Of a stretch of DNA of 41,300 bases, positions 31,174 through 41,300 are shown in pieces. Within the stretch, counting starts at the first letter, position 1. Each line of letters begins with the position of its first letter. This stretch comes from Actinomycetes bacterium. GTDB lineage: Bacteria; Actinomycetota; Actinomycetes; S36-B12; GCA-2699445. The position numbers and the translations under genes were made by a program. The notes beneath the pieces are model-generated. The model was not told the origin of the DNA and made no database searches. It saw nothing but the letters and a program-made list of their open reading frames with translations. The stretch is from positions 1 to 41,300 of the forward strand of contig JAHZLH010000006.1 in the NCBI GenBank assembly GCA_022599915.1, given 5' to 3'.

Positions 31174-33276
31174 ATGAAGAGCTTAATTGGAGTGGAGTCT
31201 TCGCAGTTAGAAACAACTGCGTCGGAACGGCGAGCAACTTTGCTCATCGCACTGGGGGTTCTCCTGGTGTCGGTGCCCATCTTTGTCTGGGGCAGTACGG
31301 AAATGACGCCGAACCCCTTCCTGATAGCCAGCGGAGCCGGCGGTGTGTTTGTAGTTGAGGTCTTCTTGGCCTTTGCCTTTCTGACCCATACGCAACTTTC
31401 CGGATCGCGATTCTCGCTGATTTTCGGTATTGCCTGCGCGGCTCCGGCCATCACGGTGCTGCCCTGGTTCTTGCTAGATGCGGCGGTCATGTCAGAGGTC
31501 GACACGGGCCTCGGCAACACCCTACGGCTGCTGGGTAAAGCGGAGTTCTTGGCGCTTGTGGTGATTGGGTTTGAGGTTCGCCGACGTGATTCGCAGGCCG
31601 CTGTCGATCGCAAGCGAGTCTTTACCGTGGTTGGCTGGGCCTCGGCCGCAGTGCTTGCGGTATCCCTGCTGCTAGGCCTGCCCATCGCCGCCGGGTGGGA
31701 ATCAGCGGCAGCAATCCAGTTCGGTATCGCAGCATTGGCAAGCCTCATCGCCGTGGTGGGGCCGCTCATGATGCTCAAAGGCTGGGGTCAAGCCGATCGA
31801 CTGCAGACAACGATGTTTCTAGTAGTGGTCGCGGTCGGGCTGGGTGCATTGAGCGCGTCGATTTACTCCGATCCATGGACGCTCGGCTGGTACGCCAATC
31901 GAATCATCAACGCTGTGGCAGCCTTTGTCGCGTTGTTGCTAGTGATGGTGGTTTCGCGACGATTGGAGGTTGACCGGTACAACCGGATTGAGGAGTTAGA
32001 CAAACTCAGGCAGGAACAACAGCGCCACTACGACCGGCTTTGGGAGATCAGTCGCACCGACGATCTCACCCAGCTTGCTACTCGACCAGTACTCATTGAG
32101 GAAATCCGACGTTGTCTTGCTGAGTCAAGAAACTCAGTCCTAGTTCTGGTCGATTTGGATGGTTTCAAGGGGATCAATGATCGATACGGTCATGCAGCGG
32201 GCGATGCACTGCTACAGAACCTTGCCGAGCGACTCCGCGCCAACGGGCGACCGGAAGACATCTGCGCACGCATGGGCGGCGATGAGTTCGCCATCTTCTT
32301 GCACGATGCGGAGGATCTCGCCAGTGTGCACCGCCGTCTGGAACAGATCGTTCGGGGACTGTCAGCGCCAGTCGACTGGGAGCACACCCAGTTGACCGTG
32401 ACGGCCAGCGCCGGATACACCGTTCTGTCAGCTGACGATCAAGACGAGCAGCTGGCAATGTACCGAGCTGATGTCGCGCTTTATGGGGCAAAAGCGCAGG
32501 GGGGCAACCGGGTAGTTCGCTTCCGGCATGCCGGACCCACGATGTTTGATGTACTGGACGCCGCAGTGTGCCCGCACCAGCAACAGCGACTGGTGCTCTA
32601 CTACCAGCCGGTGCGCTCTTTGTCCGGAGGTCAGGTCCACCACTATGAGGCGTTGCTGCGCTTGCGAGATATTGACGGTTCAGTGCGCTCAGCAAGTGAT
32701 CTCCTCCAAATGTTCGGCGAGCACGGCCGCATGGGCGAGATTGGTCACCGAGTCCTAGATCAGGTCATGCTGGATCTGAGCAGCAGCCTGTTGCAGGTTG
32801 GTCGGATTTCCATCAATCTCAGCAGCCAAGAATTGGTCGATCCGCTCCTGCTAGACCGGCTGCTTAACGGCGATATCGCTGCCCACCGTAATCAGATCAT
32901 CTTGGAAGTGGATGAGGCCAATGTCCGCGGTGACGAAGTTGCCGAGATCGTGCGAAGCCTGAAGTCGGGCGGATACGCAGTGGCCGTGGATAACTTCGGC
33001 AGCGGTGGCGGGAACTTGATCATGCTTGATCACATCAGTCCGGTTCTAGTGAAGTTGTCGTCGGACTTCTCGGTCCATGCCGGAGGTCTACAGGCGGGTG
33101 CCCGTCGGCTGCGAATCGCTGCAGACGTGATTCGGGAACTCGGTGCCTTGTCGGTGATCAAGGGCCTAGAAACGGAGCAAGAGAGTTGGATGGCGAACGC
33201 AACCGGCGTTGACCTGGCGCAAGGGCTACTTCTGGGAGCCCCCCTTGCGCCCGCTAACTTGAGCCTGGCTGACTAA
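31174..33276 (+). CDS. Membrane GGDEF-EAL protein, predicted diguanylate cyclase with degraded EAL
   Basis: A 700-residue inner-membrane protein. About eight membrane segments (residues 22-270) form an unassigned MASE-like sensor; a coiled-coil linker (about 270-300) leads to GGDEF (about 300-455) and EAL (about 470-690). The cyclase motif GGDEF is intact at 368-372, and the inhibitory I-site RxxD is at R359-D362, five residues before it, as in product-inhibited cyclases. The EAL domain keeps E492, the Asn of INLSS and K627, but the DDFGTG motif is D606-N607-F-G-S-G, the later Asp after Lys is Ser, and the conserved Glu of the AEGVE box is K663. Phosphodiesterase activity is therefore unlikely. 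It probably makes c-di-GMP; the signal is unknown. Confidence 0.9.
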   Translation: MKSLIGVESSQLETTASERRATLLIALGVLLVSVPIFVWGSTEMTPNPFLIASGAGGVFVVEVFLAFAFLTHTQLSGSRFSLIFGIACAAPAITVLPWFLLDAAVMSEVDTGLGNTLRLLGKAEFLALVVIGFEVRRRDSQAAVDRKRVFTVVGWASAAVLAVSLLLGLPIAAGWESAAAIQFGIAALASLIAVVGPLMMLKGWGQADRLQTTMFLVVVAVGLGALSASIYSDPWTLGWYANRIINAVAAFVALLLVMVVSRRLEVDRYNRIEELDKLRQEQQRHYDRLWEISRTDDLTQLATRPVLIEEIRRCLAESRNSVLVLVDLDGFKGINDRYGHAAGDALLQNLAERLRANGRPEDICARMGGDEFAIFLHDAEDLASVHRRLEQIVRGLSAPVDWEHTQLTVTASAGYTVLSADDQDEQLAMYRADVALYGAKAQGGNRVVRFRHAGPTMFDVLDAAVCPHQQQRLVLYYQPVRSLSGGQVHHYEALLRLRDIDGSVRSASDLLQMFGEHGRMGEIGHRVLDQVMLDLSSSLLQVGRISINLSSQELVDPLLLDRLLNGDIAAHRNQIILEVDEANVRGDEVAEIVRSLKSGGYAVAVDNFGSGGGNLIMLDHISPVLVKLSSDFSVHAGGLQAGARRLRIAADVIRELGALSVIKGLETEQESWMANATGVDLAQGLLLGAPLAPANLSLAD

Positions 33277-38949: not shown

Positions 38950-39005
38950 TCTCAAGTAATCACCGGCGTCTGCCGATGTACCTGTGGGATAGACCGGAGG
39001 TTGAC

Positions 39006-40670
39006 ATGGCTCAGTTAGGCGAAATTCTTGTCGCTGACGGTGTCATCAGCGACCAGCAACTACAGGGTGCCATGCAGGTGCAGCAGGAGACCGGAAAAAT
39101 GTTGGGCCGGGTCCTCGTCGACGAGGGGCTACTGAGCGAACCGCAGCTGGTCAAGGCATTGGCGGAGCAAATTGGCCTGCCGTTCATTGATCTCAGTGAA
39201 ACCATGGTGGACGCTGCCGTCATCGCTCGGATTCCCGGTCAAGTGTGCCGCAGTCATCGCGTTTTGCCGATCTCGATCGAGGGCAACCGATTGATTTTGG
39301 CGATGAGTGATCCAGGCAACGTAGTGGCTCGGGATGACATTCGCACTCGCACCGGTCTGGATGTTCGGATCGTGGTGGCGACAGCGAGTGATATTGACGC
39401 TGCGATTGATCGGTTCTACCGGGCCGATTCCGATCTCGATGACCTCACCACGGCGATTGACGTAGAACAAGAGCAGCAGGCGCTGGACTCGGTCCGCGAA
39501 GTCGTTGAGGACGCCCCCATCGTCAAGTTCGTCAACCTGCTGATCACCCAGGGGATCATGGACGGTGCCAGCGACATCCACTTAGAGCCCAACGAGCATG
39601 ACCTACTCGTCCGATTCCGGATCGACGGGGTGCTACACGAGATGATGCACTCACCCAAGGCCATCCACACCGGCGTCGTCAGCCGGCTAAAGATCATGGC
39701 GGAAATGAATATCGCGGAGCGACGAATCCCACAAGATGGTCGGCTGTCGGTCAATACGCAGGGCAAAAAGGTGGATCTGCGGATCGCGACACTACCGACC
39801 GTGTGGGGCGAGAAAGTCGTCATGCGAATCCTCGATAACAGCACGGCGCAACTAGACCTGGCCAAACTTGGCTTCAGCCAGAGCAACTACGATCGCTTCT
39901 CCGAGTCGTTTCACAAGCCCTACGGCATGATCTTGGTGACGGGACCGACGGGTTCGGGCAAGTCCACGACTTTGTATTCGGCGCTTAACGTCATCTCACG
40001 ACCCGAGGTCAACATCATCACGGTGGAAGATCCAGTGGAGTACCGACTCAACGGGATCAACCAGGTGCAGGTGAACCATAAAGCCGGGCTGACATTCGCG
40101 TCATCGTTGAAGTCGATCCTTCGTTCAGACCCAGACGTGGTCCTGATCGGTGAGATTCGGGACTACGAAACCGCACAGATCGCCATTGAAGCCGCGTTGA
40201 CAGGTCACTTAGTGCTGACGACGCTGCACACCAATGATGCGCCCAGTTCGGTGACTCGACTGACCGAAATGGGGGTCGAGCCCTTCTTGGTGGGATCTGC
40301 ACTGGATTGCGTGCTCGCCCAGCGATTAGCGCGGCGGCTGTGCACCTCTTGCCGGGAGGAGTACAAACCCACCCCGGAGACGCTGGACACTGCGCGGTTC
40401 CCGTGGGATCCAGCTGGTCCGGTGCCGATGTTGTTCCGCGCGGTGGGATGCGTGAAGTGCGCCAACACTGGCTATAAGGGCCGAATTGCGCTGCATGAGG
40501 TGATGCAGGTCGGCGAAACTATCGAACGGCTCTCAGTAGAACGTGCTAGCAATGCTGATATCACCGCGGCAGCGAAGGCAGAAGGTATGCGTCCGCTGCG
40601 ACTCGATGGCATGGACAAAGTGCTAGCCGGGATGACTTCCTTGGACGAAGTGCTCCGGGTAGCGATATAA
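39006..40670 (+). CDS. pilB: Type IV pilus assembly ATPase PilB with MshEN domain
   Basis: Hexameric motor for pilus extension, 554 residues, cytoplasmic. N-terminal MshEN/T2SSE_N domain: two 24-residue units at 3-26 and 32-55 separated by 5 residues, matching the c-di-GMP-binding repeat layout, but the leading Arg is Gln and Met. Core: Walker A GPTGSGKST (K319), Walker B region DPDVVLIGEIRD, and a zinc-binding set C446-x2-C449 and C482-x2-C485 typical of PilB/GspE. ATG 39006 with GGAGGT 6 nt upstream is chosen over the longer frame from 38976. It could be named GspE, but the pilT gene that follows favours a type IV pilus. Confidence 0.93.
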   Translation: MAQLGEILVADGVISDQQLQGAMQVQQETGKMLGRVLVDEGLLSEPQLVKALAEQIGLPFIDLSETMVDAAVIARIPGQVCRSHRVLPISIEGNRLILAMSDPGNVVARDDIRTRTGLDVRIVVATASDIDAAIDRFYRADSDLDDLTTAIDVEQEQQALDSVREVVEDAPIVKFVNLLITQGIMDGASDIHLEPNEHDLLVRFRIDGVLHEMMHSPKAIHTGVVSRLKIMAEMNIAERRIPQDGRLSVNTQGKKVDLRIATLPTVWGEKVVMRILDNSTAQLDLAKLGFSQSNYDRFSESFHKPYGMILVTGPTGSGKSTTLYSALNVISRPEVNIITVEDPVEYRLNGINQVQVNHKAGLTFASSLKSILRSDPDVVLIGEIRDYETAQIAIEAALTGHLVLTTLHTNDAPSSVTRLTEMGVEPFLVGSALDCVLAQRLARRLCTSCREEYKPTPETLDTARFPWDPAGPVPMLFRAVGCVKCANTGYKGRIALHEVMQVGETIERLSVERASNADITAAAKAEGMRPLRLDGMDKVLAGMTSLDEVLRVAI

Positions 40671-40728: not shown

Positions 40729-41300
40729 ATGACTGCGCAACCGCAATCGGGAAATGCGCCCGCTGCAGAGGATCAGCAGGGCGTTGTGCCGCGACTCGCG
40801 CCGCCGGTAGCGACCCAACCGGCCCCGCCGGCTCCCGGTGCCACGCCAACAGCGCCTGGCGCTGTGCCTGCAGCCGCGCCGCCTGCCCCGGGTACAGCTC
40901 CCGCAGGACAGCAGCCGCCGGCACCACAACCTGGGGCCGCTCAGGCGCAACAGGCCGCACCAGCTGCACCCACTGCGTTGGGTAGGAGTGCGCCCCTCAC
41001 GGCCCCGGTGGCAACGCCGGTATCAGCACCCTCACAGCAAAACGACGCTGCGACTGCCATGGGCAGGGCTATGCCGCAGTCGACCAACGTAGGCGACGTT
41101 TCGATCAGTGAGCCTTCTGTTGATGACGCTGCCTATGCGCGGGCCTCAACGGAAGCCAAGACTGAAGAGCACGACATCTCGCTGCCAGAGGTGTTGGACG
41201 CCATGATGGATGCGGGTGCTTCGGATCTGCATCTCACCATCGGTACGCGGCCGATGATCCGAGTTCGCGGTGGCTTGCGGGAACTTGAAGAGTTTCCGGA
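40729..41300 (+). CDS. pilT: Type IV pilus retraction ATPase PilT, 3' end outside window
   Basis: The first 190 codons of a gene running off the window. GGAGG lies 6 nt before the ATG. Residues 1 to about 125 are extremely Ala/Pro/Gln-rich; a short acidic part follows, and from about residue 152 the sequence (LPEVLDAMMDAG, then ASDLHLTIG and RPMIRVRGGL) is the start of a PilT-type ATPase. The motor core with Walker motifs would lie beyond the edge. Normal PilT begins almost at once with this core, so the extension of about 150 residues is unusual. It lies 58 bp after pilB. Confidence 0.87.
   Translation, partial: MTAQPQSGNAPAAEDQQGVVPRLAPPVATQPAPPAPGATPTAPGAVPAAAPPAPGTAPAGQQPPAPQPGAAQAQQAAPAAPTALGRSAPLTAPVATPVSAPSQQNDAATAMGRAMPQSTNVGDVSISEPSVDDAAYARASTEAKTEEHDISLPEVLDAMMDAGASDLHLTIGTRPMIRVRGGLRELEEFP

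Follow-up and report, generated by a model that had tools for sequence, protein, structure and literature searches.

The pilB gene at the end of this actinomycete contig raises the question of whether a type IV pilus extension ATPase can serve as a c-di-GMP receptor when its two MshEN units begin with Gln and Met in place of the Arg found in Vibrio MshE. The window, which is the whole stretch of DNA analysed, comprises 41,300 nucleotides and makes up the entire contig, so that the pil cluster is interrupted inside pilT. Judged from its pocket residues, the N-domain of this PilB probably functions as an MshEN-type receptor for c-di-GMP, and Gln3 and Met32 would cap the two guanines.

The features of the locus are listed in Table 1. 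The start at ATG 39006 was preferred over the in-frame ATG 38976, because of the GGAGG that precedes it. Translation from ATG 39006 gives two 24-residue MshEN units separated by a spacer of 5 residues, which is the exact 24-5-24 layout reported in the preliminary description, and it likewise confirms that the residues corresponding to Arg9 and Arg38 of Vibrio MshE are replaced by Gln3 and Met32. Both replacements lie outside the printed c-di-GMP consensus at position 1 (R in 2016; R/K/L in 2024), and unit I also carries Met23 where the published motif has Leu (position 21 of the unit). The contact positions 2, 3, 17, 21 and 24 of both units, from which the pocket score was calculated with hydrophobic residues taken as equivalent at the Leu sites, agree with the motif in 10 of 10 cases. 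When the pattern LG-x2-[LIVM]-x3-G-x6-[LIVM]-x3-[LIVM]-x2-Q was scanned against all open segments of 100 aa or longer in the six frames of the window (27,723 residues), the two PilB units were the only matches. The doubled pattern occurred once in these segments and in 0 of 200,000 shuffled versions of the PilB N-domain (160 aa), while the single pattern appeared in 55 of 200,000 such shuffles. The 24-5-24 double motif in PilB is not a product of chance.

Table 1. Positions of the pilB features and of neighbouring genes in the window.
Feature	Position	Strand	Details and basis
GGDEF-EAL protein	31174..33276	+	Ends 5.7 kb before pilB; outside the conserved cluster
GGAGG, ribosome-binding-like	38996..39000	+	5 bases before ATG 39006; read directly
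pilB, type IV pilus extension ATPase, 554 aa	39006..40670	+	Translation; Pfam T2SSE (PF00437) 1.7e-139, MshEN 2.3e-25
MshEN unit I, aa 3-26, QLGEILVADGVISDQQLQGAMQVQ, position 1 = Gln3 (codon 39012-39014)	39012..39083	+	
Spacer QETGK, 5 residues, aa 27-31	39084..39098	+	Translation
MshEN unit II, aa 32-55, MLGRVLVDEGLLSEPQLVKALAEQ, position 1 = Met32 (codon 39099-39101)	39099..39170	+	
MshEN_C subdomain, the stretch matched by Pfam PF05157	39174..39428	+	aa 57-141, 2.3e-25
Asp102 codon	39309..39311	+	Alignment: equivalent of MshE Asp108 / PilF Asp266 (guanine contacts)
5' part of pilT, truncated at the contig end; N-terminus rich in Pro/Ala	40729..41298	+	63% identity over 68 aa to a PilT-like ORF in L049

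The gene of the window is a genuine MshEN-type PilB. It was matched to MshE (5htl_A) by phmmer at 4.8e-22, and its ATPase half has the features of a PilB-type motor, with GPTGSGKS and CTSC...CVKC (two CxxC pairs) present and a pilT fragment adjoining; we take the former to be the Walker A motif and the latter the tetracysteine motif. The match to the Pfam MshEN model lies on the C-subdomain alone, outside the c-di-GMP units, and therefore cannot tell intact units from eroded ones.

The AlphaFold2 model of the N-domain, folded with a 75-row alignment that contained 74 relatives and excluded the f5 rows described below, has a pLDDT of 90.3 and a pTM of 0.78, and displays a four-helix N-subdomain together with an alpha/beta C-subdomain. 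Its best structural match was the c-di-GMP-bound MshE (5htl_B; VIA Z 18.0, rmsd 3.5 over 138; Foldseek 8.6e-14), followed by the c-di-GMP-bound PilF GSPII-B. The model was also matched by Xanthomonas PilB and by XpsE and PilF GSPII-A, the last two being reported as non-binders (PMC5013675 and PMC12002112, respectively). Because non-binders match the model as well, the structure supports the fold only and not the binding. Matches of its helices to fumarase/aspartase, with Z up to 7.8, were set aside as unrelated.

The relatives were collected from 99 relatives, 75 named loci and 20 further stretches, which gave 150 PilB-like ORFs, 149 of which were aligned (one that starts after query residue 60 was dropped), and 143 distinct rows were left after merging duplicate N-domains. 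The closest set consists of 30 distinct sequences of at least 764 bits, window included, with the cut chosen after the scores were known. Aligning the relatives at positions 3 and 32, as the preliminary description had proposed, revealed Q in 28 of the 30 at unit I position 1 (E and L in one each), and S in 22, M in 5, T in 2 and A in 1 at unit II position 1. Six genomes of the window's family have a PilB match, and five of them carry the Gln/Met cap pair; two further genomes of the family had no PilB match at E 1e-100. The nearest named record was a MAG labelled Micrococcales bacterium NAT138 (L048), whose PilB is 85% identical. The remaining contacts were well kept in the closest set, with Gly5 in 29, Gly34 in 30, Gln26 in 25, Gln55 in 29 and Asp102 in 30 sequences, and the pocket score was 10 in 21 of them, 9 in four, 8 in four and 7 in one. 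The pocket entropy was 0.58 bits against 1.41 at the other positions of aa 3-55. Conservation of the pocket exceeded that of the other unit positions (Mann-Whitney p 0.006, one-sided), a value that is descriptive only, since the sequences are related.

In a wider census of 125 distinct rows of at least 500 bits, 74 pockets were intact (score of at least 8), 21 had a score of 7 and 30 were eroded (score of 6 or less). Only five of the 74 intact actinobacterial pockets are Arg/Arg, so that most would escape a search with the 2016 consensus, and 40 contain no Arg at either cap. As judged from these alignments, Gln at unit I position 1 is a lineage trait and the absence of Arg at the caps is the lineage norm; this absence alone is no sign of a dead site. 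Five loci (L070, L088, L068, L079 and L083) each contain two nearby PilB-like genes with differing pocket letters, such as Arg/Ser and Arg/Pro in L079.

The chemistry at position 1 of the published MshEN domains bears directly on the missing Arg. The Arg that starts each MshE unit (Arg9, Arg38) stacks on guanine and makes no base-edge hydrogen bonds, and guanine is recognised through the Leu triads, Gln24 and the backbone amides of Gly3 and of the residue after it (Wang 2016, PMC5013675). The MshE R9A variant lost 83% of binding and gave no complementation in vivo (Roelofs 2015, PMC4624772), while affinity shifts of at most fivefold were given for such MshE variants by Wang 2016 (PMC5013675). 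The GSPII-B domain of Thermus PilF, which is capped by Lys167 and Leu196, binds c-di-GMP at 6 nM, an affinity some 83-fold higher than that of MshE; its variants bind at 2 nM (K167L), 150 nM (K167R, 25-fold weaker) and 23 nM (L196R, 4-fold weaker); the same study broadened position 1 of the motif to R/K/L and described GSPII-C as a binder although one of its units has Pro at position 1 (2024, PMC11731258). On these results, Arg as such is not required at the cap, where a bulky aliphatic residue can be better and a small residue may be worse. A cut-down, reconstructed PilF GSPII-A with Ser at unit II position 1, in which A41 was also present, did not bind, and in the whole GSPII-A domain a perfect consensus was insufficient while the subdomain contacts and the helix cap remained, which means that an intact motif is not sufficient (2025, PMC12002112). 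In the portions of the MshEN and PilF literature consulted here, Gln or Met was not met as a tested natural cap.

The R9A and Ser results, together with the position of Gln and Met outside both published forms of the consensus, favour a reading in which the domain without Arg at position 1 would bind c-di-GMP weakly (tens of µM or worse) or not at all, and the pilus would not be controlled by the messenger. We consider this unlikely: the data concern Ala or Ser caps and not Gln or Met, the Arg-free GSPII-B is a nanomolar binder that is weakened by Arg, and the other pocket contacts are maintained across the lineage and disappear together elsewhere, which would be odd for a dead site. Most of the close relatives carry Ser at unit II, the cap with contrary data, so binding is more to be expected in the window's family than in its neighbours. 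The altered caps might also shift specificity to another cyclic dinucleotide, such as 3',3'-cGAMP, which MshEN does bind, though weakly (Kd 3.3e-4 M; PMC5013675). Such a shift has very little likelihood, given that the caps only stack and that guanine is read by amides at a Gly that is kept here.

The preferred reading, a c-di-GMP receptor with Gln and Met as caps, can be laid out by homology. A hydrophobic triad would lie beneath each base (L19/M23/L33 and L4/L48/L52), and the backbone amides of Gly5, of Gly34 and of the residues that follow them would read the bases. Gln26 and Gln55 would hold the ribose-phosphates, and Asp102 of the C-subdomain would touch one of the bases. The Gln side chain has two methylenes, and that of Met is long and hydrophobic; Gln3 and Met32 could shield the outer guanine faces by aliphatic stacking, like Lys167 and Leu196 in Thermus PilF GSPII-B. 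Bound c-di-GMP would then couple its cellular level to pilus extension. We infer that binding is retained, because the pocket is intact in the lineage, the Arg-free GSPII-B binds, and the pocket was lost as a block in the f5 set. The earlier suggestion that loss of Arg weakens or abolishes binding appears doubtful in view of the tight binding by GSPII-B and of Gln being a lineage trait, though some weakening could occur, since R9A removed most of the binding in MshE and Ser at unit II cost the GSPII-A construct its binding. The broader proposal of the preliminary description, that an MshEN-type PilB offers a plausible and testable c-di-GMP link in an actinobacterium, is upheld.

The f5 set comprises ten sequences (L046, L047, L104 and L123-L129), nine from f5 genomes, which belong to the same order, and one named Candidatus Nanopelagicales. 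In all ten, both Gly3, both Gln24 and Asp102 are replaced, with Thr standing in place of Asp102 in each of them, and the core and turn positions are still conserved, with an entropy of 0.55 bits. The pocket is no more conserved there than the other unit positions (p 0.15, descriptive only for these related sequences). A loss of the pocket as a block with the core kept is as expected when a ligand site dies, and therefore the Gly, Gln and Asp sites fit serving a ligand rather than the fold. Other actinomycetes besides f5 also keep the core letters with an eroded pocket, so that the fold seems to have a ligand-free use, and the non-binding domains of XpsE and GSPII-A show that such domains persist. 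It could be proposed on these grounds that the N-domain of the window PilB has taken on a structural or docking role, towards other pilus proteins or at hexamer contacts, with pocket residues that serve protein contacts and not the nucleotide. This role is highly unlikely, since the f5 proteins are without the Gly, Gln and Asp contacts and the ligand-free use thus does not need them. No MshEN units could be recognised in six Bifidobacterium PilB homologues (L089, L092, L096, L097, L116 and L121), which come from genomes with 0-1 GGDEF matches at E 1e-10.

We also considered whether pocket erosion follows the loss of cyclases. GGDEF counts across loci were taken at E 1e-10, where 33 means at least 33 in some genomes. 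Across 80 loci, the 48 genomes with intact pockets (score of at least 8) had a median of 11 GGDEF matches, none having 0-1, against a median of 2.5 in the 28 genomes with eroded pockets (6 or less), 11 of which were at 0-1 (Mann-Whitney p 7e-5, one-sided; the four score-7 loci, with 33, 5, 7 and 9 GGDEF matches, stood outside the test). However, the tree of the ATPase half, with 79 rows (45 intact, 29 eroded and five between), contains only 4-5 state changes, independent pairs were not significant, and 5 of 9 f5 genomes combine an eroded pocket with 13-30 GGDEF matches. A crude association is thus seen but is unsupported once relatedness is allowed for, and it was rejected as evidence. In the same tree, Sanguibacter suaedae (L054) has an intact Gln/Ser pocket amid eroded lineages (supports 86 and 90, not starred).

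The cyclase gene that the preliminary description placed about 6 kb upstream of pilB does exist and encodes a GGDEF-EAL protein. Its GGDEF and RxxD letters are intact, and its EAL domain differs from one EAL domain of the same genome at two positions (DD to DN and E to K), which we take to be catalytic. Of five EAL loci tried, one yielded an ORF that could be aligned, and the reading of this EAL domain as degenerate has that single comparison behind it; on these letters, the protein may make rather than break c-di-GMP. The supposed link to pilB found no support. Within the 11 of 75 named loci in which the rarA-alaS interval could be judged (64 could not), each holding both genes and the closest relative being among them, a GGDEF motif between rarA and alaS was absent in 11 of 11. 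The idea of the gene as a genetic partner of pilB was therefore rejected, and its proximity is incidental.

The order alaS-mltG-aroE-pilB was found in 31 of the 75 named loci, many of which are short, and 25 of these contain ruvX too; none of these pilB neighbours was found in 29 loci, several being too short to hold them. Downstream of pilB, the relative L049 contains a PilT-like ATPase gene and then a gene with two T2SSF stretches (PilC-like). Four T2SSF matches (one below the cut-off) were detected in the window's genome, in pairs on contigs C41 and C7, each of which carries another T2SSE ATPase. These two sets are probably Tad-type, and pilC would have been lost at the contig end. A second PilT-like gene of the genome is located on contig C44. 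A Pro/Ala-rich extension precedes the PilT domain in three PilT-like proteins of this group (window 40729-41298, L146 5527-6780 and L049 8700-10085). The promoter and terminator scan returned 0 promoter-like and 3 terminator-like sites, with no excess over shuffles.

The profile search of the window's genome gave 12 GGDEF and 6 EAL matches at E 0.001, so that the cell should be able to produce c-di-GMP, as well as one MshEN match above the cut-off and no match to PilZ. PilZ matches were obtained from 5 of the 99 genomes in the relatives search and, among 14 control genomes, from 5. With 12 GGDEF matches and no PilZ match, PilB is the clearest classical candidate effector of this genome. Other receptors, such as transcription factors, inactive GGDEF/EAL proteins and riboswitches, could also be present, and the scan for c-di-GMP-I and -II riboswitches was uninformative, as it gave no match in this genome and none in the control genomes either. 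A bolder and rather doubtful extension is that the Gln/Met pocket of PilB might be the main, perhaps the only, classical receptor for a dozen cyclases in a PilZ-poor lineage, that the Met lid tunes it to nanomolar affinity, and that another family of the order lost the pocket and kept the fold.

No report of an actinobacterial PilB that binds c-di-GMP was found in open-licence PMC, although the supplementary lists of Wang 2016 may name such proteins, and nothing useful was found in the literature on Nanopelagicales pili. Should the Gln/Met site prove to bind, the receptor-prediction motif ought to be broadened again. The families with intact and with eroded pockets on one fold provide a natural experiment on c-di-GMP and the monoderm pilus motor. 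The domain represents a known kind of receptor with a modestly new lid chemistry, being a Gln/Met-capped member in a phylum for which no report was found.

Among the known systems, the N-domain of Vibrio cholerae MshE (PDB 5htl; PMC5013675) has the same 24-5-24 layout, the best structural match and the equivalent Asp108. It differs in its Arg9/Arg38 caps and in the Lys5, Arg7 and Lys8 that precede its motif, whereas only Met-Ala precedes that of the window PilB. PilF GSPII-C of Thermus thermophilus is reported with three motif copies, unlike the window PilB (PMC11731258). This domain (6f8l, 6ejf) supplied the best phmmer match in the PDB, with chain 6f8l_G at aa 335-484. In the PilB chain of 3jc8, which is presumably from M. 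xanthus, the motif begins at residue 4 and, unlike in the window, Arg occupies unit I position 1. Myxococcus xanthus PilB is reported to bind c-di-GMP through its N-terminal MshEN domain, according to a review (PMC11656802). PilF GSPII-B of Thermus thermophilus (PDB 8pdk, 8pfa, 8pe0; PMC11731258) has an Arg-free two-unit pocket, with KLGE / LLGR against QLGE / MLGR here. The caps are Lys/Leu in GSPII-B and Gln/Met in the window, unit II is one residue shorter in GSPII-B, PilF has three such domains where the window PilB has one, and PilF Arg268, which orients Asp266, aligns with Gly104 of the window PilB. The two proteins nevertheless share the Leu triads, the Gly, Gln and Asp contacts and a PilB-type motor (PMC11731258).
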